Positions 9,737 to 32,738 of a stretch of 48,925 bases of DNA are shown here, piece after piece (position 1 is the stretch's first letter; the number at the start of each line of letters is the position of its first letter). The stretch covers positions 1 to 48,925 of the forward strand of contig JAHJQL010000033.1 of the NCBI GenBank assembly GCA_018819065.1, read 5' to 3'. Source of the DNA: Nanobdellota archaeon (GTDB taxonomy: Archaea > Nanobdellota > Nanobdellia > Woesearchaeales > GCA-2686295). Both the position numbers and the translations under genes were made by a program. Under the pieces are notes generated by a model. It was not told the DNA's origin and ran no database searches. It saw only the letters and a program-made list of their open reading frames with translations.

Positions 9737-10954
9737 TTGGAACGAGGAACTGATATCACAAATTTTAAACGAGTTTATCGCGAAAGAAACGTTGGAGATT
9801 TTCCATTAAATCTAACTTTAAGATTAAGAAAACAAGATGACAAAAAATATGGTGAAAATCCATCGCAACACTGCGCAGTCTACAAGATTGATGAAATAAA
9901 CAATGAGTATGCTGGTGTTTTGCCACGTATGTTAAACATTAATTATGCTCGAACAGATGATGAAGGCAAAGGCGGATTATCACTGACAAACGAGATGGAC
10001 ATAGCAAGAGCAATGGATGTCTTAAAATTCTTTGATGAACCAGCAGTTGTAATAATGAAACATAACATTGTTTCTGGCTTTGCAAAACAAGTAGATTCAA
10101 ATCAAACATTAGCAGACCTTTTTAGACTGGCAAGAGATGCTGATTTAAGAAGCAATTTTGGCGGAACAGCAGTATTTAACAGACACCTAGATATGAAAAC
10201 TGCAGAGGCGTTATATGAACTAAAAGGTAAAAACCCTTTCTTTGTTGATGTATTAGCAGCAATTAATTATAATGAATTAGTTTTAGATTATGTGCAGTCT
10301 CAATCAAAGAGTGTTCGAATAGCACAGATATCATCACCATATGCAATTCCAAAATTTACTGGAGACAGCACTTATAACTTGTTGTCATTTAAAGAGATGC
10401 CAACAGGAAGAGTTGGTGTTCAAGACTTGTACCTAACTTCGATTAAGAGCAGTGAGGATCTTATCATGCGTCCAATGGTTGTGGATAAGAAAGGAGAGCA
10501 TTACATCAGAAGAGGAGCTGATAAAAGAGAGCTTGATGATCTCTTGACTTCATGGTACATAAACGTTGCAGGCGCAAGGAGCAACGGAGTTGTCTTTGTA
10601 AAAAATGGGGTGTCTGTTGCAATCGGCTCAGGACAAGTTGAGAGAGTTGGGGCAATTGAGCAAGCAATAGTCAAGGGAGTGCAAAAATACATGGATAAGA
10701 AAGGTTTTAAATATGATTCATTGAAAGGAATTGGTGATAACGATCTATTTATGCGTGAAGCGTTCGAAGGAGCTGTCTGCTCATCAGATGCATTTTTTCC
10801 ATTTGCCGACTCCATAGAACTGCTTGCAAGAGCTGGTGTTACTGCAGTTGTACAACCATATGGCTCGGTAAACGACGGAGCTGTAATTGATGCAGCAAAT
10901 AATTACCTGATAGCAATGCCTGCAACGCTTGAGCGAGCTTTTGGACACTTCTAG
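9737..10954 (+). CDS. purH: AICAR formyltransferase, stand-alone PurH C-terminal domain
   Basis: Transfers a formyl group from 10-formyltetrahydrofolate to AICAR, feeding PurO. The 405-aa protein matches only the transformylase half of bifunctional PurH: KYGENPSQ (38-45), the catalytic Lys-His in IMKHNIVSGFA (K108, H109), GSGQVERVGAIEQA, and SDAFFPFADSIE with AVVQPYGSVND near the end. The N-terminal IMP cyclohydrolase domain is absent, consistent with the separate purO upstream. The TTG start at 9737 is supported by AGGAGG at 9723-9728. Its last about 20 codons recur, diverged, at 15050-15118. Confidence 0.9.
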   Translation: MERGTDITNFKRVYRERNVGDFPLNLTLRLRKQDDKKYGENPSQHCAVYKIDEINNEYAGVLPRMLNINYARTDDEGKGGLSLTNEMDIARAMDVLKFFDEPAVVIMKHNIVSGFAKQVDSNQTLADLFRLARDADLRSNFGGTAVFNRHLDMKTAEALYELKGKNPFFVDVLAAINYNELVLDYVQSQSKSVRIAQISSPYAIPKFTGDSTYNLLSFKEMPTGRVGVQDLYLTSIKSSEDLIMRPMVVDKKGEHYIRRGADKRELDDLLTSWYINVAGARSNGVVFVKNGVSVAIGSGQVERVGAIEQAIVKGVQKYMDKKGFKYDSLKGIGDNDLFMREAFEGAVCSSDAFFPFADSIELLARAGVTAVVQPYGSVNDGAVIDAANNYLIAMPATLERAFGHF

Positions 10955-11139
10955 AATATTTTTTTCTTTTTAGAAACTTTTTTATAGTAGTTTTGATATG
11001 GTATTTAGTGAGGAGAGTGTTTTTTTTTATGAAAAAGTTTTTGTTTGAGTTGTTAGTCATCTTTGTTTTGTTGTTATCTTTAGGTCTGGAGTTGCCTTCT
11101 CAAAGTGTTGATAATTCTTCTTTGGTTGGTTCTGCTTCT
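10894..11139 (+). repeat. 5' arm, copy A, of the duplicated protease locus
   Basis: This stretch contains the last codons of purH, the intergenic promoter and the first 37 codons of the S8 protease. It recurs at 15059-15303. From the ATG to the end of the arm both copies are 111 nt long and differ at very few positions; the promoter part differs by small changes in T-run length and single substitutions. Confidence 0.9.
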
Positions 11140-14100
11140 CATTTCGAGCCAATGAATGATTCTTTTGACGCCGTTCAAAGCAGAGCAACGAGCACAGATG
11201 ATTTGAGTCGTTTAAAAGAAGATTATGTAAACTATTTCTCAATTACAGAACGTGTAGATCTTCCTGATAAGTTTAAGATGGTTTATCCTTTTGCAAATGT
11301 GTCAGACGTAGAACGACTAAAATATGAGGGTTACATTGTGAAGTTTAAGAAAGACCCTGTTATTGAATACAAAACTAATCTTGAAAACCTGTTGGTACAG
11401 CAAAAATATGTGGGCAAGGCTGTTTCTGTATTTAGTGTGCAAGAAATAAATCAGATAGATTCACAAGTAAGGTCTTACAGGGCAGCAATAGATGCAGAGC
11501 ATGAAGCTGCAAAAACGGACATTAAAAATAGATTAAATGCCCCTTTCATAACTGACAAAATCAAGGGGGAATACAAAAATACTTTCAACGGCATTGCTCT
11601 TGACATTTCTGATCAGGAAGCTGAAAAACTTAAAACATCGCCATACGTGCAGGAAGTCTATCCTAATTATGAGGTGAAAGCACTGCTTATGGATTCTGTG
11701 CCGCTGATAGGCGCGACAGACGTGTGGAAGTTGAACGCGAGCGGCCAGCCATGTATAACATATGGCGGCTCTGGCGAGTGCCTTACAGGAAAAAATGTTA
11801 CAATAGCAATAATTGACACGGGAGTTGACTACACACATACTGATCTGGGTGGATGTTTTGGTACAGGCTGCAAAGTAGCAGGCGGCTACGACTTTGTCAA
11901 CAATGACAATGATCCAATGGACGACCATGGACATGGAACACATGTCGCAGCAACAGCAGCAGGCAATGGAACATTAAAAGGCGTCGCACCAGATGCAACA
12001 ATCTACGCATACAAAGTTCTTAGTGCAAGTGGAAGTGGTGATTCCAGCGGTATTATTGCCGCTATAGAGCGTTCTGTTGACCCTAACAATGATAGTGATT
12101 TCTCAGATCACCTTGATATAATTTCCATGAGCTTAGGAGGGCCTGGAACGCCTGATGATCCTATGAGTACTGCAGTTGATAATGCAGTCAATAATGGCGT
12201 TGTTGCTGTTATTGCAGCTGGAAATTCTGGTCCTTCTCAACAAACAATTGGGAGTCCTGGAACAGCGAGAAAAGCAATAACTGTTGGTGCAACGGATAAG
12301 TATGATAATATAATATATTTTAGTTCGCGTGGACCGGTTGTTTGGAACAATAGTTTTTTGATAAAGCCAGATGTTGTGGCTCCCGGCGTAGGTATTTGTG
12401 CAGCAGAATATGATAACTGGTTAAGTGAGCGTAGGTGCTTAGATGATAATCATATTGCAATCTCTGGAACTTCTATGGCAACTCCGCATGTTGCCGGTGT
12501 TGCCGCTTTGATAAGACAGGCTCATCCGGACTGGGTTCCTGATGAGATAAAAGCAATTTTAAAAAATTCTGCAAAAGACCTGAGTTATGAAATTTTTGCA
12601 CAGGGTTATGGAAGAGTAAACGCAACTAAGATTGTGACTGCTCAAAATGCACCACCTATAGCAGAAGTCAAAACTTCCGGTTTGTTTAACAAGTCAATCG
12701 ACATAATTGGAACTGCGAATGGAAGAGCATTTGAGTATTTTGAGGTTTATTATGGTGTTGCTACTTCAAACAATTGGAATATGATTTGCAATGGAATCAT
12801 TCAGGTAAATGATGGGGTATTATGTTCACAGTTTGATGTAAATAGGGTGGTTGATGGTGAATATCAGTTTAGGTTGGTTGTCTATGGGACAGATGGGCAG
12901 AAAACTGAGGATAGAAACATATTCAAAATAGAATTTAACAAAATAAGAAAACCACAAGACAAAGATGTATATCGACTAGGTGATATTATTGCGTTCAACG
13001 GAACAATTTCAGGAAACAACTTAATTAATTACTCTGTTGAGTTCAAACCAAGAGATGGAAACCAATGGATGAGCAATGGTATTGTGTTGGTTAACGGGGG
13101 CACCAATTATATCTTTGACAACATCTTCGCTTTTTGGAATACAAACGGTCTTGATGAAGGAATATATGATCTGAGAATAAAAATTAATTATGCGCATGGA
13201 GTTGCTGAAAAATATATTAATAATGTTTATTTAGACTCAACGATAAAAATTGGGTGGCCTGTAACTTTATCACCTTACTATAATAGCCATTTTTCTTTAT
13301 ATGCAACTGTTTCAGACTTGAATGGTGATGGAACAAAGGAGGTCGTTGCGATAGCAGCGACAGACAGAATTGATAATAGCTGTACGGATCGGTGTAACCC
13401 CCATTTAATTACATCCGTCTATGTGTTTGACTCTAACGGAAATTTGCTTTCCGGATGGCCAAAAAATCTTCCTTATCATGGCTATTCCATATCAGAACCA
13501 GCAATTGCTGATTTGGATAATGACGGAAAAAACGAGATAATAATTGTAGGAAATCCAAATTTTGATGATCCGAACTGGCCTGATTCATTTGTTCAGATAT
13601 TTCGTAGTGACGGAACCCAATTCAGTGGCTGGCCACGTTATATAAAATCTACAAGCCATTCGTACGGTATAACACTATCTGTTGGTGATGTAGATAACAA
13701 TGGTAATCTAGAAATTGTTGTTGGCTCTGGCGGGACGTTTGGTAGCTCACAACATTGTAGTTCAAATGCAGAATGTGGCTATAATGGCCAATGTATGAAT
13801 ACGCGTTGCGTCTATCTTTATTCTGACATAAATGTATTTAACAGCGATGGGTCTTATTTAAATGGATGGCCTGTTTTCCTACCAGACTTTTTTAAACCGT
13901 ACAGTACCCCCGTCATAGTTAACTTAGATAATAATCCTGACAAGGAAATTGTTGTATGTTCTATTCATGCTTTTCAACCCAATACTTATGGTAGTCGTGT
14001 CTATGCCTTCAAACATAATGGCACTCTTATTTCTGGATTTCCGTATTCTAATACGTTTAGATGGTGCTTTACAAACGCTGCCGGTGACATAAATAATGAT

Positions 14101-14985
14101 GGCCTTGCTGAGATAATCACACAATTTGGAATAATAAATAGCACTGGAGACCTGTTGCAATGGAACAATCCTAGTGTTAATATGTACTCTGTTGCTGTTG
14201 GAAACGTTAATAATGACCCATACTTAGAAATAGCCTACGGCGATGTTTCCGGAGAAGCGTTTTTAGTGGACTACAATGGAAATAACTTAATTGGATGGCC
14301 TCTGAAAAAGACGTACTTATTTGCAGACGGAACGCCTCTGATTGCTGACATTATTGATGATGAAAAAAAAGAGATTATAGTTCCGTGGTGGTCTTACAAT
14401 GCAAATATCGAGACAGGCTTGCATGTGTATAATTTGAACGGTACTTATGCTAGAGGATTTCCTAAGCTTGTTGGAATAACTTCTATAACTTCCTCTATTG
14501 TTGACGATATTGATAATGACGGGTACCTGGAACTTATTGGTTCCTCACGCCAGGATACAATTGCAAAAGAACAAAAAATATTTGTTTGGGACTTAGACAA
14601 ACAAAATAACAACAGAATTGATTGGCCTATGTTCCAGCATGACACGCAACATACAGGTTTCTATACAAACAATATTATTGACATCATAAACCCTGTGGTT
14701 GCATCCTCTTCATCAGTTTCTGGTAGTATTGTGACGTTGACAGCTACTGCTACTGACAATGTTGGGGTGAGTGAAGTGAAGATTTACACTGCGAGGGGCT
14801 ATCCTCAGGGTCATGATCCTTACGTGCTTGTTAAGACTTGCACATCATCACCTTGCTTGTATACTTCGGGCTATAATAATGGTAATTATGTTTATTACTC
14901 AGCAGCCAGGGATGCTGCTGGTAATTCTGCTAATTCAGTGGAGATGGTCTTTAGAGTCAATTCAAAGTTGCCATCACTGGTGTAA
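11029..14985 (+). CDS. Secreted subtilisin-like (S8) protease with FG-GAP repeats and Ig-like C-terminus
   Basis: ATG 11029 is preferred over an in-frame TTG 12 codons upstream: GAGGAGAG lies just before it and the signal peptide (MKKFLFELL then a Leu/Val-rich core) starts there. An inhibitor-I9-like propeptide precedes the catalytic domain, which has Asp in IIDTGVDY (about residue 263), His in HGHGTHV (about 301), the oxyanion Asn in AAGNSG and Ser in GTSMATPH (about 481). Then about eight FG-GAP/VCBS-type repeats follow (DLNGDGTKE, DLDNDGKNE, DVDNNGNLE, DIDNDGYLE), one interrupted by a Cys-rich insert. The C-terminal about 90 residues form an Ig-like domain almost identical to that of the next gene. 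It is probably an extracellular or surface-bound protease; no sorting signal or terminal TM is seen. Confidence 0.92.
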   Translation: MKKFLFELLVIFVLLLSLGLELPSQSVDNSSLVGSASHFEPMNDSFDAVQSRATSTDDLSRLKEDYVNYFSITERVDLPDKFKMVYPFANVSDVERLKYEGYIVKFKKDPVIEYKTNLENLLVQQKYVGKAVSVFSVQEINQIDSQVRSYRAAIDAEHEAAKTDIKNRLNAPFITDKIKGEYKNTFNGIALDISDQEAEKLKTSPYVQEVYPNYEVKALLMDSVPLIGATDVWKLNASGQPCITYGGSGECLTGKNVTIAIIDTGVDYTHTDLGGCFGTGCKVAGGYDFVNNDNDPMDDHGHGTHVAATAAGNGTLKGVAPDATIYAYKVLSASGSGDSSGIIAAIERSVDPNNDSDFSDHLDIISMSLGGPGTPDDPMSTAVDNAVNNGVVAVIAAGNSGPSQQTIGSPGTARKAITVGATDKYDNIIYFSSRGPVVWNNSFLIKPDVVAPGVGICAAEYDNWLSERRCLDDNHIAISGTSMATPHVAGVAALIRQAHPDWVPDEIKAILKNSAKDLSYEIFAQGYGRVNATKIVTAQNAPPIAEVKTSGLFNKSIDIIGTANGRAFEYFEVYYGVATSNNWNMICNGIIQVNDGVLCSQFDVNRVVDGEYQFRLVVYGTDGQKTEDRNIFKIEFNKIRKPQDKDVYRLGDIIAFNGTISGNNLINYSVEFKPRDGNQWMSNGIVLVNGGTNYIFDNIFAFWNTNGLDEGIYDLRIKINYAHGVAEKYINNVYLDSTIKIGWPVTLSPYYNSHFSLYATVSDLNGDGTKEVVAIAATDRIDNSCTDRCNPHLITSVYVFDSNGNLLSGWPKNLPYHGYSISEPAIADLDNDGKNEIIIVGNPNFDDPNWPDSFVQIFRSDGTQFSGWPRYIKSTSHSYGITLSVGDVDNNGNLEIVVGSGGTFGSSQHCSSNAECGYNGQCMNTRCVYLYSDINVFNSDGSYLNGWPVFLPDFFKPYSTPVIVNLDNNPDKEIVVCSIHAFQPNTYGSRVYAFKHNGTLISGFPYSNTFRWCFTNAAGDINNDGLAEIITQFGIINSTGDLLQWNNPSVNMYSVAVGNVNNDPYLEIAYGDVSGEAFLVDYNGNNLIGWPLKKTYLFADGTPLIADIIDDEKKEIIVPWWSYNANIETGLHVYNLNGTYARGFPKLVGITSITSSIVDDIDNDGYLELIGSSRQDTIAKEQKIFVWDLDKQNNNRIDWPMFQHDTQHTGFYTNNIIDIINPVVASSSSVSGSIVTLTATATDNVGVSEVKIYTARGYPQGHDPYVLVKTCTSSPCLYTSGYNNGNYVYYSAARDAAGNSANSVEMVFRVNSKLPSLV

Positions 14986-15027
14986 GTCTTTTGAGTTTTG
15001 CAAGTGTTGAATTTGAGCATTGTTGCT
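14719..15027 (+). repeat. 3' arm, copy A: shared Ig-like C-terminus and downstream flank
   Basis: The last about 265 nt of the S8 protease plus about 40 nt of 3' flank recur at 17665-17982 with only scattered substitutions. Identity spans the stop codons and includes the flank CAAGTGTTGAATTTGAGCAT, so it is a DNA duplication, not only protein-level similarity. Confidence 0.9.
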
Positions 15028-15049
15028 CTAAAGACTTGTTGCTTTGTCA

Positions 15050-15118
15050 ATGACATTTGCAAATAATCATGGCATTGCTATGCCTGCTACTAAGGAGAGG
15101 GCTTTTGGACACTTCTAG
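15050..15118 (+). pseudogene. Remnant of a purH 3' end between the two protease genes
   Basis: Reading from the ATG at 15050 to TAG at 15116-15118 gives a 22-codon frame whose last 18 residues (ANNHGIAMPATKERAFGHF region) match the purH C-terminus (IAMPAT-ERAFGHF). Many differences from the purH gene above are synonymous (GCT for GCA, ACT for ACG), and the stop plus the following TTCTAGAATATTTTT are shared. It therefore marks the left edge of a second copy of the purH-protease junction, from a diverged allele or after long separation. It is not expected to be functional. Confidence 0.75.
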
Positions 15119-15303
15119 AATATTTTTTTTTTTTTAGAAACTTTTTTATAATAGTCTTGATATGGTATTTAGTGAGGAGAGTGTTTTTTTTTATGAAAAA
15201 GTTTTTGTTTGAGTTGTTAGTCATCTTTGTTTTGTTGTTATCTTTAGGTCTGGAGATGCCTTCTCAAAGTGTTGATAATTCTTCTTTGGTTGGTTCTGCT
15301 TCT
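15059..15303 (+). repeat. 5' arm, copy B, of the duplicated protease locus
   Basis: Counterpart of 10894-11139: purH tail remnant, TATA region TTTTTTATAATAG, GAGGAGAG ribosome-binding site and the first 37 codons of the papain-like protease. The two proteins diverge immediately after the shared sequence ending LVGSAS. Confidence 0.9.
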
Positions 15304-17940
15304 AAATCTGGGCCAATAGATGATTCTGGGTTTGGTTTTGTTGAGAATGTTGTCGCGTCAAAGACTTTTAATGGTCAAAAAGTTTCTTTAGAGTCGTTCA
15401 CTATTCCTTCTGATGATGGATTAGTGGTTTACACTGTTAATAGAGAGTTTACTTCTACACAAGAGTTTAATCTTGAAATTTCTGTGCCTGTTAATGCTTT
15501 GAGTGTTAGTGGTGGTTTAGAGTTTTTGTCAGAGCCAGCGCTTGTAAGGATTATATTAACGGATGTGGATGGTGGAGAGTATCTTGTTTATGAGTCTTAC
15601 ACTCCTTTAGACTCGGCTGCTGATCAGCGAGTAGTGTTTAATAATATTTGTGAGGAGAGTTGTGTTTTAAAGGGTGTTACTCCAAAATCTTTGCGAATTC
15701 AAGTAGAGAATGCACGATTAAATCTTGGATCATTGAATTATTTAAATTCAGGCAAATCATTTAACAAAGATAATGTTCTAGGATTTAAACAGCAAATGCT
15801 AAAGGGGCAAGAAACAGCTAAAATCAATTCTTTTAACACGAATCAGCAGTCATGGACTGCAGGAGAAACATCATATTCAGAATTAAGTTATGAGGAGAAG
15901 AAGAATCTTTTTAAGGATCCTCAAGGAGATCTTCCTAATCTGCAAGGATTTGAATACTACAAGGGTGGTGTGTTTGAGATAAAGTCGAATTATAATACAG
16001 AATCTACTCAAAACGAATTCGATAATCAGAATGAGATTCTGTTGCCAGAACATCACTCACGATCCGGCGATCCGCTCGCTGAGGACGACACTCCACCTAT
16101 TATGTCTTTTTCTATTAACCCTGAAAAACCCAACATAAATGAACAAATCAACGTATGCGTACAAGCCACTGATAGAAGCGGAATAAGACACATGAGTTTC
16201 TCTATACACGGTATTCTTCGTAATTGTGACTTTCAGAGTTATTGTGAACTTTATCGTTTTGAACTTGATCGAGTCGGTACTTATCCATATTCTGTAGTAG
16301 CGGTTGATAATTCTTCATCATTAAATAAGATACAAAAGAACGGTACTATTTATGCTTATGGAGAATTGAATCTTCATGTAGTGATCCACAAGGATAGAGT
16401 AGATGGACCTGTTATTCTAGATACGCAAACAAATAGCGAAACCATAACTTTGCCTGCAGGTACTACTATTTTTGTGAGTCCTTTGTTTTTACCTTATGAA
16501 CCCTATATTTGGAAAGGAAATGTTACTTATCAGAACCATACAAAAGACATATTTGATCTAGATATGTCTCAATATGATAATGAACTTAATGAATCAGCAA
16601 CTTTCGTAGTTTCTGGAGACTCTCGTTTAGTAGTAAGTATCGAGCATCCGAATATCAGCAAAAGCATATATATAAAAATGGGAAAATATGATGGTCCTCT
16701 TTTATTATCATTTCCTGATAATTTTGACTGGAGAAATGTACATAATGAGAATTGGCTAACACCTGTTACGTGTCAATACCCATGCTTTATTAATGGACAA
16801 AAACGATGTGACATCGACAAACAGAGTTGTATAAATATGGGTGGTGTATGGGGAAATTGTGGTAGTTGCTGGGCGTTCGCTAGTACAGCTGCTGTAGAAT
16901 CCAACATGAACCTTTATTACAATAAGCATCTTGATTATGACTTATCGGAACAAGAATTAGTGTCATGCGCTGCCTTTAATGGTTGTGGAGGCGGTGGTAT
17001 AGATTTAGCGTTAAATTACTACAGAACAAAGGGTGTCTTGAATGAATCTTACTTTCCTTATCTTGCGTCAAATCTACCATGTAGTCTTAGAACATCTATA
17101 AACAAACCTGTGGTAAAAATAAACAACGTTCAGAAACTGATAGAAGACAAATGCAGAAAAGACCCACAGTGTGGTACAAAGATATTAATAATGAAGTATG
17201 GTGTTTTGAGTAGTCAAATAGGAACATGGAGTCATTCTATGGCACTTCTTGGATGGAAGATGGACAAAGATTTTGATAGTATCTGGATTTTCAAAAACAG
17301 CGGTGGACCCAATTGGGGAGAAAACGGTTACGGATTAATTAAATTTTCGCCTGGAAAATTCGGCTTGGAAACTGGTTATGTGTATAATCAAACACTAATA
17401 GTCAATTACCCTATATATAGTGTTGATGAAGCTGGTTCAATAATACATAATAGCATTTCTTGTGTCGACAAGGACCATGACAGCTACTGCAACTGGGGTA
17501 TCTCTGAGCAGAAGCCGTCTACATGTTCTGCGTCGTGCAAGCCTGAGAAGGACTGCAATGACGCTGACCCTGGTCTGGGACCTTTTATTTCAGAGACAGA
17601 CCTGAATTGCAAAATAATCTCTATCGACAAGGAACCTCCTACAGTTACAACAACAACCAACGTATCTGGTAGTATTGTGACGTTGACAGCTACTGCTACT
17701 GATAATGTTGGGGTGAGTGAAGTGAAGATTTACACTGCGAGGGGCTATCCTCAGGGTCATGATCCTTACGTGCTTGTTAAGACTTGCACATCATCACCTT
17801 GCTTGTATACTTCGGGTTATAACAATGGTAATTATGTTTATTACTCAGCAGCCAGGGATGTGGCTGGTAATTCTGCTAATTCAGTGGAGATGGTCTTTAG
17901 AGTCAATTCAAAGTTGCCCTCAGTGGCAGTGGAGGAGTAG
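15193..17940 (+). CDS. Secreted papain-like (C1) cysteine protease with MopE-type motif and Ig-like C-terminus
   Basis: The ATG at 15193 and signal peptide are the same as in the S8 gene; the mature core is unrelated. A long N-terminal region of beta-rich character precedes the C1 domain. The mature-type start FDWRN is followed by the active Cys in GNCGSCWAF (about C559), EQELVSC and GGGGIDLAL, His in SHSMALLGW (about H681) and Asn in FKNSGGPNWGENGYG (about N702). All papain catalytic residues are present. After it lies a Cys- and Asp-rich calcium-type motif (DKDHDSYCNW, DCNDADPG) like those of MopE/thrombospondin-type repeats, then the Ig-like domain shared with the upstream protease. Probably extracellular. 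The 927-codon frame upstream to 15157 is judged too long by 12 codons. Confidence 0.9.
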   Translation: MKKFLFELLVIFVLLLSLGLEMPSQSVDNSSLVGSASKSGPIDDSGFGFVENVVASKTFNGQKVSLESFTIPSDDGLVVYTVNREFTSTQEFNLEISVPVNALSVSGGLEFLSEPALVRIILTDVDGGEYLVYESYTPLDSAADQRVVFNNICEESCVLKGVTPKSLRIQVENARLNLGSLNYLNSGKSFNKDNVLGFKQQMLKGQETAKINSFNTNQQSWTAGETSYSELSYEEKKNLFKDPQGDLPNLQGFEYYKGGVFEIKSNYNTESTQNEFDNQNEILLPEHHSRSGDPLAEDDTPPIMSFSINPEKPNINEQINVCVQATDRSGIRHMSFSIHGILRNCDFQSYCELYRFELDRVGTYPYSVVAVDNSSSLNKIQKNGTIYAYGELNLHVVIHKDRVDGPVILDTQTNSETITLPAGTTIFVSPLFLPYEPYIWKGNVTYQNHTKDIFDLDMSQYDNELNESATFVVSGDSRLVVSIEHPNISKSIYIKMGKYDGPLLLSFPDNFDWRNVHNENWLTPVTCQYPCFINGQKRCDIDKQSCINMGGVWGNCGSCWAFASTAAVESNMNLYYNKHLDYDLSEQELVSCAAFNGCGGGGIDLALNYYRTKGVLNESYFPYLASNLPCSLRTSINKPVVKINNVQKLIEDKCRKDPQCGTKILIMKYGVLSSQIGTWSHSMALLGWKMDKDFDSIWIFKNSGGPNWGENGYGLIKFSPGKFGLETGYVYNQTLIVNYPIYSVDEAGSIIHNSISCVDKDHDSYCNWGISEQKPSTCSASCKPEKDCNDADPGLGPFISETDLNCKIISIDKEPPTVTTTTNVSGSIVTLTATATDNVGVSEVKIYTARGYPQGHDPYVLVKTCTSSPCLYTSGYNNGNYVYYSAARDVAGNSANSVEMVFRVNSKLPSVAVEE

Positions 17941-17982
17941 GTTTTTTAAGTCTTGCAAGTGTTGAATTTGAGCATTGCTGCT
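17665..17982 (+). repeat. 3' arm, copy B: shared Ig-like C-terminus and downstream flank
   Basis: Counterpart of 14719-15027. The coding part differs by a handful of substitutions. Copy B ends VAVEE where copy A ends SLV, and similarity resumes after the stop codon for about 40 nt. Confidence 0.9.
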
Positions 17983-18049
17983 ATATTATTAGATTTCTGG
18001 CAATTATTCTTTTTTCTATTCTCAACACTTTCTTAACTAGCGTTAACTT

Positions 18050-18100: not shown

Positions 18101-18166
18101 ATGAAGACTGCAAAGAAAAAAGATACAACTAAGAAAAAGAGTGGAAGCGGCTGTGGATGCTGCTAA
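18101..18166 (+). CDS. 21-residue Lys-rich microprotein ending GCGCC
   Basis: An isolated transcription unit: TATA-like box, AGGTGA ribosome-binding site, a 21-codon frame from ATG to TAA, and a T-rich stretch (TTTTTTAATTTTTTTT) right after the stop. The first about 13 residues are dominated by Lys and Thr; the tail is SGSGCGCC with three Cys in the last four residues. No longer frame overlaps it. The Cys tail could bind metal or receive a lipid, and the polybasic stretch could bind membrane or nucleic acid; none of this is shown. It lies about 100 nt upstream of the pyruvate oxidoreductase, in the same direction, but separated by the T-run. Confidence 0.6.
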   Translation: MKTAKKKDTTKKKSGSGCGCC

Positions 18167-18265: not shown

Positions 18266-21200
18266 ATGAAGACGACTATTGATGGTAACACTGCAGCGGC
18301 CCACGTAGCTTATGCTTTTAGTGAGGTTGCAGCTATTTATCCAATAACTCCTGCATCTCCAATTGGTGAGACTGTTGATGAGTGGGCTGCTAAGGGAAAA
18401 GAGAATATCTTTGGGCAGAAAGTCAAGGTTATAGAGATGCAGTCAGAAGCAGGCGCTGCAGGTGTTGTTCATGGCTCTTTATCAGCAGGTGCCCTCACCA
18501 CTACATTTACTGCATCACAAGGGCTTTTGTTAATGCTTCCAAACATGTTCAAAATAGCTGGTGAGATGCAGCCAACGGTTTTTCACATAGCCGCAAGGTC
18601 GCTTGCTTATCAGTCACTCTCAATCTTTGGAGACCACTCTGATGTCATGGCTGCAAGGGGTACAGGCTTTGTAATGCTAGCATCATCATCTGTTCAGGAA
18701 GTGATGGACAACGCTATTGTCTCACACCTATCAACTCTTGAAGCGAGGATTCCATTCCTACACTTCTTTGACGGCTTTAGAACTTCTCATGAAATACAAA
18801 AAATAGAGCTAGTGGATTATGAAGTCATCAAATCAATGATTGAGATGAAGTACATCACAAGTTTTAGAAAGAGAGCGCTAAGCCCAGACCGCCCAGTTGC
18901 TAAGGTAGGAGCGCAAAACCCTGACGTTTACTTCCAAGGACGAGAAGTGTCAAACAAGTTTTACGATGACATACCAAGAATAGTCAAGAAATACTACGAG
19001 TTGCTTGGAAAAAAGACGGGTCGGAAGTACAAATTATACGAGTACGTGGGTGCAAAGGATGCAAAGAAGATAATAATATCAATGGGTTCATCATGCGAAA
19101 CAATTGAAGAGACGGTAAGGTACCTAAACAAGAAAGGAGAAAAAGTTGGAGCATTAAAGGTCAGGCTTTATCGGCCTTTTGCAATCAAAGACTTTACATC
19201 AATCATACCAAAAACAGTGAAAAAAATTGCAGTTCTTGACAGGACAAAAGAATCAGGCTCAATTGGAGAGCCACTATACCAAGATGTGGTCTCAGCGCTA
19301 AAAGACTCAAAAAATATTACAATAATCGGAGGAAGATATGGTCTCTCGTCAAAAGAATTCACGCCATCAATGGTAAAGGCAGTCTTTGACCACCTAGACT
19401 CTAAGTGCTTCACAGGATTCACTGTTGGAATAAATGATGACGTGACACACAAATCAATACCTATAAATGGAGAGCTAGAAATCACTCCTAAAAGTCTTAT
19501 GGGCTGCAAGTTTTGGGGGTTTGGATCAGATGGAACAGTTGGGGCTAATAAAAACAGCATAAAAATACTTGGTGAAGAGACAGATATGTACGTCCAAGCC
19601 TACTTTTCATACGACTCAAAAAAGTCTGGTGGAACAACAATATCACATTTAAGGTTTGGAAAGCACGAGATAAAAGCGCCATACTTGTTGACAACAGTTG
19701 ATTTTGTCGCTCTTCACAACCATTCATTCATAGGCAAGTATGACATTCTTGAAGGAATAAAAGAAGGTGGAACATTCTTGTTAAACTCTCCGTGGGAGCC
19801 TGACGAAGTATTTGGTCGGTTAACAAAAGAAATGCAGGAGACGATAATTCAAAAGAAGATAAAATTCTACAACATAGACGCTTATAGCATTGCAAGGGAA
19901 GTGGGTCTAGGTCGAAGGATAAACACAGTTATGCAGGCAGCGTTCTTCAAGATATCAAAAGTGTTGCCTGAAAAAAAGTCAATGGAACTGATGAAGAAAT
20001 TTGTAAAGAAAACTTTTGAGAAGAAAGGAATGGATATCGTCAAGATGAACTGGACGGCCATTGATAAAGCTGGGGATGCTCTTGTAAGAATAAAAATTCC
20101 AGAAAAAACCACAACTTACAAAGAACACAGGATAATAAGTGACCACTCAATATTTGCTGATAGGATAATACAGCCAATCATGGACTTTAAAGGAGACAAC
20201 ATACCAGTATCACATATGACTCTTGATGGTTCAATACCAACAGGAACCGCCAAGCTTGAGAAGAGGGGAATAGCAATAGACGTTCCAAAATGGCTGCCAG
20301 AACACTGCATACAATGCGGATTTTGCTCGTTTGTATGCCCGCACAGCGCTATAAGGATGAAACAAATAAAACCAGAAAAGTTGGTTGGTGCTTCAAAATC
20401 ATTCAAAACAATAAAATCAAACACGAAGAATGATAAAGAACTACAGTTCAAAGTTCAAGTGTTTCCAGAAGACTGCACCGGATGCACACTATGCATTGAT
20501 ATCTGCCCAACAAAAGAGAAATCACTAGTAATGACAGATATTGATGAAGAGAGACGACTTGGTGAAAACGAGAACGTTACACTCTTTGAATCACTGCCAG
20601 ATAACATTGTAGATGGAGTGCCTGAAAACACTCTTAAATGGACTCAACTAAGAGAGCCACTCTTTGAATTCTCAGGGGCTTGCAGCGGATGTGGAGAAAC
20701 ACCATACATCAAGTTATTAACACAGCTATTTGGCGAGCGGATGATAATTGCAAATGCAACTGGTTGCTCATCAATATTTGGAGGAACATTCCCAACCATA
20801 CCATATACAAAAAACAAAGAAGGAAAAGGGCCTGCGTGGGCGAACTCTTTATTTGAAGACAACGCAGAGTACGGATTTGGAATGAGAATAGCAGTTGATG
20901 CAAACCGGGAGCAACTATTATCAAACATTAAAAAAATACTCGTTGTTGGAACAACACCAAAACTAGTAGGCCTATTAAACCATATAGTCTACAAGTGGAA
21001 CGATGTATCTGATGCTGCGCAAATACTTGCAAAAGAGATACGAGCAGAGCTTTTAAATGCGTTAAAGCAAAGCACTGGAAAACAAAAGGAGATAATAGAA
21101 AAGATAATAGAACTAGAAGACTACTTTGTGGACAGGACAGTTTGGGCGATAGGTGGAGATGGCTGGGCTTATGATATTGGCTTTGGAGGACTAGACCACG

Positions 21201-21772
21201 TCCTTGCACAAGGAAAGAAAATCAATGTTCTGGTACTGGACACTGAAGTTTATTCAAACACAGGCGGACAAGCATCAAAGTCAACACCTATAGGTGCAGT
21301 TGCAAAGTTTGCCGCCGCTGGAAAAGAAATAGCCAAGAAGAACTTAGGGCTTATGATGATGAGCTATAAATATATCTATATAGCATCTGTTAATCTTGGC
21401 GCAAACAGAAACCAACTCATAAAAGCGATGGTTGAAGCAGAAAAGTATGATGGGCCATCAATAATAATCGCGTACTCCCCATGCATAAATCATGGAATAG
21501 ACCTAAGCAAGAGCGGACAGATAGAGAGAAACGCAGTCAACTCAGGATACTGGCCGCTTTACAGGTACAACCCAGACTTAATAAGAGAAGGCAAGAACCC
21601 ATTTGTCTGGGACTCACCAGAAGTAACTATTCCACTAAGTGAATACATGAAAGATGAGAAGAGATATACAATTCTTAAAAACGAGTTTCCAGAGAGGGCT
21701 GAACGGCTGTACAAGCTAGCAGAAGAAGAAGCAACCAAGAGATTTGCAGAATTCAAGAAGATGTCAGAGTGA
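18266..21772 (+). CDS. nifJ: Pyruvate:ferredoxin oxidoreductase, single-chain
   Basis: Oxidatively decarboxylates pyruvate to acetyl-CoA, reducing ferredoxin, or runs in reverse. The 1168-aa chain contains all domains in the usual order: the alpha-type pyruvate domain (YPITPASPIGE near residue 30), domain II, the gamma-type domain (GSDGTVGANKNSIKI, about 417), a double 4Fe-4S ferredoxin domain (CIQCGFCSFVCP at about 681 and CTGCTLCIDICP at about 737), and the thiamine diphosphate domain (CSGCGETP about 806; GDGWAYDIGFGG about 965; SNTGGQASKSTP). Length matches the bacterial and protist NifJ form; most archaea use four separate subunits. It ends 5 nt before the convergent toxin gene. Confidence 0.96.
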   Translation: MKTTIDGNTAAAHVAYAFSEVAAIYPITPASPIGETVDEWAAKGKENIFGQKVKVIEMQSEAGAAGVVHGSLSAGALTTTFTASQGLLLMLPNMFKIAGEMQPTVFHIAARSLAYQSLSIFGDHSDVMAARGTGFVMLASSSVQEVMDNAIVSHLSTLEARIPFLHFFDGFRTSHEIQKIELVDYEVIKSMIEMKYITSFRKRALSPDRPVAKVGAQNPDVYFQGREVSNKFYDDIPRIVKKYYELLGKKTGRKYKLYEYVGAKDAKKIIISMGSSCETIEETVRYLNKKGEKVGALKVRLYRPFAIKDFTSIIPKTVKKIAVLDRTKESGSIGEPLYQDVVSALKDSKNITIIGGRYGLSSKEFTPSMVKAVFDHLDSKCFTGFTVGINDDVTHKSIPINGELEITPKSLMGCKFWGFGSDGTVGANKNSIKILGEETDMYVQAYFSYDSKKSGGTTISHLRFGKHEIKAPYLLTTVDFVALHNHSFIGKYDILEGIKEGGTFLLNSPWEPDEVFGRLTKEMQETIIQKKIKFYNIDAYSIAREVGLGRRINTVMQAAFFKISKVLPEKKSMELMKKFVKKTFEKKGMDIVKMNWTAIDKAGDALVRIKIPEKTTTYKEHRIISDHSIFADRIIQPIMDFKGDNIPVSHMTLDGSIPTGTAKLEKRGIAIDVPKWLPEHCIQCGFCSFVCPHSAIRMKQIKPEKLVGASKSFKTIKSNTKNDKELQFKVQVFPEDCTGCTLCIDICPTKEKSLVMTDIDEERRLGENENVTLFESLPDNIVDGVPENTLKWTQLREPLFEFSGACSGCGETPYIKLLTQLFGERMIIANATGCSSIFGGTFPTIPYTKNKEGKGPAWANSLFEDNAEYGFGMRIAVDANREQLLSNIKKILVVGTTPKLVGLLNHIVYKWNDVSDAAQILAKEIRAELLNALKQSTGKQKEIIEKIIELEDYFVDRTVWAIGGDGWAYDIGFGGLDHVLAQGKKINVLVLDTEVYSNTGGQASKSTPIGAVAKFAAAGKEIAKKNLGLMMMSYKYIYIASVNLGANRNQLIKAMVEAEKYDGPSIIIAYSPCINHGIDLSKSGQIERNAVNSGYWPLYRYNPDLIREGKNPFVWDSPEVTIPLSEYMKDEKRYTILKNEFPERAERLYKLAEEEATKRFAEFKKMSE

Positions 21773-31990: not shown

Positions 31991-32018
31991 TACCACCTCA
32001 ACACTTCCTGAAGTGGTA
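31991..32018 (-). promoter_or_regulatory. Nested palindromes, operator of tandem module 1
   Basis: TACCAC (31991-31996) pairs with GTGGTA (32013-32018), and inside it CACTTC (32002-32007) pairs with GAAGTG (32010-32015). A TATTTATATTTAAAT stretch next to it (32017-32032) is the likely TATA region for the minus-strand antitoxin. Confidence 0.55.
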
Positions 32019-32066
32019 TTTATATTTAAATCTTTTGTCATTGGTAGATTTTTGTAGGGTTGCTGC

Positions 32067-32104
32067 TTAATAAGCCTTTGTCATTTTTTACCGGAGATAT
32101 TCTG
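32067..32104. repeat. Direct repeat flanking toxin-antitoxin module 2, copy 1
   Basis: The sequence TTAATAAGCCTTTG followed by TTTTTACCGGAGATATT recurs at 32701-32738 with few differences. The two copies bracket the second toxin-antitoxin module at a spacing of about 634 bp, so they look like the boundaries of a tandem duplication. Confidence 0.7.
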
Positions 32105-32638: not shown

Positions 32639-32660
32639 TACGAATAAATACTTATTCGTA
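32639..32660 (-). promoter_or_regulatory. 22-bp palindrome, operator of tandem module 2
   Basis: TACGAATAA (32639-32647), ATAC, TTATTCGTA (32652-32660): an exact 9-bp inverted repeat with a 4-bp spacer, 15 nt before the antitoxin start. Confidence 0.65.
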
Positions 32661-32700
32661 TTTAAATCTTCTGGTATCATAGACTTTTTTTGTTGTTTTT

Positions 32701-32738
32701 CTTTAATAAGCCTTTGCTATCTTTTACCGGAGATATTT
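32701..32738. repeat. Direct repeat flanking toxin-antitoxin module 2, copy 2
   Basis: Counterpart of 32067-32104: TTTAATAAGCCTTTG, then CTTTTACCGGAGATATT. Confidence 0.7.

Follow-up and report, generated by a model that had tools for sequence, protein, structure and literature searches.

The window analysed here, a stretch of 48,925 nucleotides, is contig C17 of a draft MAG (1.52 Mb, 93 contigs) of a Nanobdellota archaeon of the order Woesearchaeales. It carries, between a purH-type gene and a gene for a single-chain pyruvate:ferredoxin oxidoreductase-like protein (POR; 18266–21772, 1168 aa), two consecutive genes for an S8 subtilase and a C1 papain-type protease, together with two pairs of repeats at their ends and a second, broken copy of the purH 3' end (Table 1). 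A putative peptide of 21 residues (MKTAKKKDTTKKKSGSGCGCC, 18101–18166), its reading frame preceded by an AT-rich promoter-like stretch, lies between the C1 protease and POR genes.

Table 1. Features of the purH–protease–POR region of the window.
Feature	Position	Strand	Basis and remarks
purH-type gene (AICAR transformylase domain)	9737..10954	+	NCBIfam PRK00881/purH C-terminal part; 3' end forms the left boundary of the repeat
5' arm, copy 1, high-identity tract: last 18 nt of purH, intergenic region, codons 1–37	10937..11139	+	best low-divergence tract
S8 subtilase: signal peptide, I9 propeptide, S8 catalytic domain, FG-GAP repeats, C-terminal Big_7 Ig-like domain	11029..14985	+	Pfam; PDB matches
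3' arm, copy 1: coding end of Ig-like domain, stop, ~40 nt of 3' flank	14719..15027	+	self-BLAST, base-level alignment
Second purH 3'-end remnant, truncated and frameshifted (ANNHGIAMPATKERAFGHF, then stop), between the protease genes	15042..15118	+	left edge uncertain, 15042–15055
5' arm, copy 2, contents as copy 1	15101..15303	+	base-level alignment
C1 papain-type protease: signal peptide, N-terminal domain, papain domain, D/C-rich MopE-like motif, C-terminal Big_7	15193..17940	+	Pfam; PDB matches
3' arm, copy 2	17665..17982	+	self-BLAST, base-level alignment

The product of the first gene matches Peptidase_S8 (9e-64; PF00082, 216 bits against a cut-off of 21.8), Inhibitor_I9, FG-GAP and Big_7 in Pfam, displays the D, H and S motifs of the family (AIIDTGVDYTH, HGHGTHVAA and SGTSMATPHVAG) and has PDB matches that include 3afg_A and 8jmw_A. 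The second product matches Peptidase_C1 (3e-26; PF00112, 93.4 bits against a cut-off of 20.7) and Big_7, contains the Cys, His and Asn motifs (GNCGSCWAFAS, WSHSMALLGW and FKNSGGPNWGENGYG) and finds Der p 1 and plant papains in the PDB. The preliminary description of this DNA had recognized a subtilisin with FG-GAP repeats and a papain with a MopE-type motif in the middles of the two genes; Pfam identifies both enzymes and the FG-GAP repeats, whereas the MopE-type motif (DKDHDSYCNWG) is discernible by eye only and has no Pfam match. In a pairwise protein comparison, notable similarity is limited to residues 1–45 and the last ~100 residues, and the two catalytic cores are unrelated. Both proteins present export leaders, as judged by eye, and these leaders and the catalytic motifs indicate that both are probably active secreted endopeptidases. 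Since both genes carry the same promoter and leader, one copy each, the two are probably expressed under the same conditions and exported in the same way. The Big_7 domain encoded by the 3' arm scores above the Pfam cut-off of 24.1 in both genes (24.6 and 30.7 bits); contact with a surface or a substrate is the customary guess for such Ig-like ends, and is its putative role here. With secretion and function predicted in this manner, a nutritional role for the two proteases is probable. Labelling experiments in the Black Sea reportedly showed protein use by Woesearchaeota, and the MAGs recovered there encode few extracellular peptidases (PMC8359207).

Near-identical ends within older homology

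The two protease genes had been reported to share promoter, ribosome-binding site, first 37 codons, last ~90 codons and ~40 nt of 3' flank at the DNA level, and both self-BLAST of the window and base-level alignment bear this out. The 5' repeat pairs 10895–11163 with 15059–15327 (90.7% identity, E 1e-103) and the 3' repeat pairs 14716–15030 with 17662–17985 (92.6%, E 4e-136). These are the only strong direct repeats in the window, the sole further one in the self-comparison being a weak 85-nt repeat (32017–32101 and 32653–32737, 77%). The shared 5' segment includes an archaeal-type BRE/TATA at ~10973–10986 and a GA-rich RBS-like site, both read from the sequence, and its 37 codons encode the signal peptide and a SLVGSAS motif. 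The preliminary description had placed the start of this repeat at the promoter; base-level alignment instead locates it inside the 3' end of purH and uncovers the broken purH tail of the second copy, which had gone unreported. A [TVLI]GxA motif soon after a hydrophobic N-terminal stretch, of which SLVGSAS is the version in the 5' arm (11029–11139 and 15193–15303), is enriched among putative secreted proteins of the order (10/80 versus 2.6% of control stretches, P 4e-5), with instances at L127, L140, L143, L187, L199 and other loci.

Alignment of the arms and computation of identity along the locus, which had been proposed beforehand, reveal high-identity tracts inside diverged homologous DNA. 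A change-point scan places the low-divergence tract of the 5' arm at 10937–11139, a result reached by 0/300 permutations, and 199 of its 203 nt are identical. Of these four differences, three fall in the 74 nt of the promoter part and one in the 111 nt of codons 1–37, which contain no synonymous change. Immediately to the right, codons 38–44 present seven differences in 21 nt, and 17 of the 24 nt beyond the tract match, far above random in-frame pairs (empirical P 5e-6); the right edge therefore also lies inside older homology. The 5' arm hence combines raised identity and sharp edges with diverged homologous flanks on both sides, as a gene-conversion tract does. In the 3' coding arm there are nine differences in 266 aligned positions, and weak residual homology can be followed to the left of the tract (17/39 nt and 4/13 residues identical by hand count). 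Exact runs shared by the arms span 99 and 113 nt. Selection alone was rejected as the cause of the identity of the arms, because synonymous and intergenic positions are conserved to the same degree. From these alignments, the near-identical arms appear to be sharp tracts embedded in older, diverged homology, the pattern expected from gene conversion or recombination in the arms. Gene conversion and concerted evolution between prokaryotic paralogues have been described (PMC6053082), as has intermolecular conversion in Haloferax volcanii (PMC11276520). The locus resembles these cases in its high-identity tract, sharp edges and diverged homologous surroundings, but differs from paralogue conversion in that only the ends are homologous, with cores from unrelated families.

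The purH remnant and its divergence

The purH tail of the second copy matches the resident purH at 28 of 43 nt (10893–10935; 65%, 15 differences), and a 14-nt alignment gap breaks its reading frame. The remnant reads ANNHGIAMPATKERAFGHF and the resident gene ends in ANNYLIAMPATLERAFGHF; both tails occur as ordinary variants among the purH ends of relatives (..NEHGIAMPATLER.FGHF). The 18 codons on which the comparison rests hold five synonymous and three non-synonymous codon differences, while simulated drift after a duplication is expected to produce ~8 amino-acid changes and gives no more than three in less than 0.1% of the runs. Divergence of this synonymous-rich kind indicates that the remnant diverged mostly while it was a coding gene, that is, in another lineage or as a long-kept second purH. 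The tail also departs sharply from the arm that it adjoins, both in total differences (15/43 versus about 5/204 in the arms; Fisher P 3e-9) and in synonymous changes (five in 18 codons versus none in the 37 codons of the 5' arm). The second protease unit therefore probably came from a relative by recombination, the arms being homogenised later or exchanged separately. No donor haplotype for the second unit was found.

Arms, cores and C-terminal modules in the order

The preliminary description named different enzyme domains between the same arms in related genomes as a sign of a payload-swap system, but the arms are absent from the 353 genomes of the order (one per species, 0.5–2.3 Mb). In that set, the 3' arm returns one weak Ig match and the DNA of the 5' arm, apart from its two copies in the window, nothing but short matches that fall mostly in the AT-rich promoter stretch. 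Likewise, no arms occur in the genome itself beyond the two window sites, the 3' arm finds only weak Ig matches in 60 relatives and only distant bacterial Ig domains (mostly 31–45% identity) in GTDB genome contigs, and viral contigs provide no match to the C1 core or to the arms, the 3' arm having been sought by exact DNA pattern as well. No third payload between arms emerged from these searches. The locus is absent from all five other species of the genus examined. This purH is missing from five congeners and two other family members, with a distant one in G004, and a full-length POR is present among these genomes in G007 only, with no adjoining protease. A purH homologue exists in 45/353 genomes of the order, and where the surroundings of purH or POR were inspected in relatives, no protease adjoins them. 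Among 12 relatives examined for POR, G007 carries the one full-length homologue (68%), the others giving split or distant matches.

The cores are more widely distributed. S8 homologues were identified in 49/60 relatives searched and the C1 core in 21/353 genomes of the order at 1e-10, accompanied by the N-terminal domain in G098, G333, G256, G243 and G255. In a congener, the C1 protease and its N-terminal domain are encoded by separate, directly adjoining frames, which represent either a frameshifted or a split version of the single gene in the window (L132, 1494–4195, on contig C21 of G001). The S8 and C1 relatives inspected at their ends have different termini. An S8 paralogue on contig C47 of the same genome is collinear with the body of the window protein (residues 98–1214 versus 76–1143, 35%), but the similarity stops just before the 3' arm, and the paralogue continues into a Cys-rich module at its C-terminus (C..SDGG..). 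This module also terminates a C1 protease of G256 and lies inside a 2532-residue protein of G048; it is present in 176/353 genomes of the order and has no Pfam match in the two copies scanned. This module of ~65 residues (C..SDGG...G....DYC....L.EY.C......C..GC..G.C) stands at the end or in the interior of many proteins of the order, as at L127 (2771–6445, minus strand; C-terminus), L140 and L137.

That a C1 relative ends in the same module as the C47 subtilase indicates that C-terminal modules are generally exchangeable in the order. The sharing of a C-terminal module by S8 and C1 proteases is thus known elsewhere in the order at the protein level, and the window contributes near-identity of DNA between neighbours. 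Viewed against S8 subtilases with an I9 propeptide and C-terminal accessory domains, the first protease has the expected core and propeptide and differs in a Big_7 end held in common with a C1 protease; the second shares the N-terminal and papain domains of secreted C1 proteases in several relatives, whose C-termini are other. The C-terminal domains of PorSS/T9SS and the dockerins are modular sorting or attachment domains borne by varied secreted enzymes. As in those systems, one C-terminal module here sits on different catalytic cores, but the sharing is at the nucleotide level between two neighbours, and a sorting role would be hypothetical.

Origin of the tandem proteases

We favour, with a probability of about 0.6, a history in which domain shuffling, one unequal recombination and homogenisation of the ends account for the tandem protease pair. 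Domain shuffling would have set the S8/FG-GAP core and the C1 core into the same leader and C-terminal Ig-like frame, a step that, with unrelated cores lying within homologous ends, must have included the replacement of at least one core. Unequal recombination between two diverged haplotypes would then have landed the second unit, with the purH 3' end of the other haplotype, downstream of the first, and the ends would have become near-identical through gene conversion or by crossing-over within the arms. Under this history, the contrast between homogenised arms and an unhomogenised purH tail has no explanation beyond the chance position of the tract end. While the homologous ends, the purH remnant and the sharp tract are features of the locus, the order and direction of events are what we infer from them and from the distinct cores. 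A weak hint as to direction comes from codon usage in the 100 codons after the 5' arm, which resembles the arm in C1 and not in S8 (mean log ratio 0.23 +/- 0.08 versus -0.03 +/- 0.08), in agreement with purine-ending two-fold codons (G-ending 18/26 versus 11/31, P 0.017). The arms may originally have been those of C1 and later have been written onto the S8 gene; an S8 body grafted into a copy of the C1 frame would fit the same hint equally well.

A simpler course, in which one protease gene was duplicated in tandem and one core was then replaced by an unrelated protease domain, would account for the homologous ends and for a duplicated unit that includes the purH tail. The likeness of the ends would then be due to the recency of the duplication, and a recent event predicts that the two purH tails match as closely as the arms do, contrary to the contrast described above; neutral drift also fails to yield the synonymous-rich pattern of the remnant. 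We consider this course quite unlikely. There is, moreover, only a slim chance that two strains or species were joined at shared ends during assembly or binning. The assembly is a draft MAG of 93 contigs, and exact runs of the length seen in the arms could mislead the assembly of short reads, so that the cores might, in principle, have been placed in the wrong order. However, the junction between the S8 and C1 genes (about 15028–15118) holds a truncated and frameshifted purH piece, which a join at the repeat does not produce and which therefore argues against an artefact, and the copies differ at fixed positions.

The most far-reaching alternative is that advanced in the preliminary description, in which conserved arms deliver different payloads. 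The arms would be a recombination frame at a purH–POR site shared among lineages, through which strains exchange secreted enzymes, and unequal crossing-over would have caught two payloads here. Homologous arms holding unrelated cores agree with such a frame, as do a remnant that would derive from the purH of another lineage and arms that match far better than the purH tail beside them, which is expected if arms travel between lineages. Against it, a cassette predicts that several genomes or loci hold conserved arms with differing payloads, and the arms occur at this locus only, with two payloads at one site in a single MAG; furthermore, neither a recombinase nor a site-specific signal was apparent at the edges of the arms. 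Recombination in the arms is consequently retained from that proposal, on the strength of the sharp high-identity tract and the foreign purH remnant, but the cassette is unlikely, and the repeated exchange implied by an unusual diversification system is not supported. It is distinctly doubtful that the purH–POR interval is a natural exchange site at which promoter-leader and Ig-domain arms move secreted hydrolases between strains, as a surface-enzyme diversification system of a reduced-genome archaeon.

In the favoured history, the processes at work (domain shuffling, unequal recombination and homogenised ends) are ordinary ones, of which the locus would be an unusually clear example. The purH scrap would be a marker left by recombination between lineages, and the locus represents at present one event. 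If it is true that strains hold other payloads between the same arms, the locus would be part of a diversification system for secreted enzymes. In its present form, the pair illustrates a way for an enzyme of a new class to acquire the promoter, secretion leader and C-terminal domain already present in a small archaeal genome.
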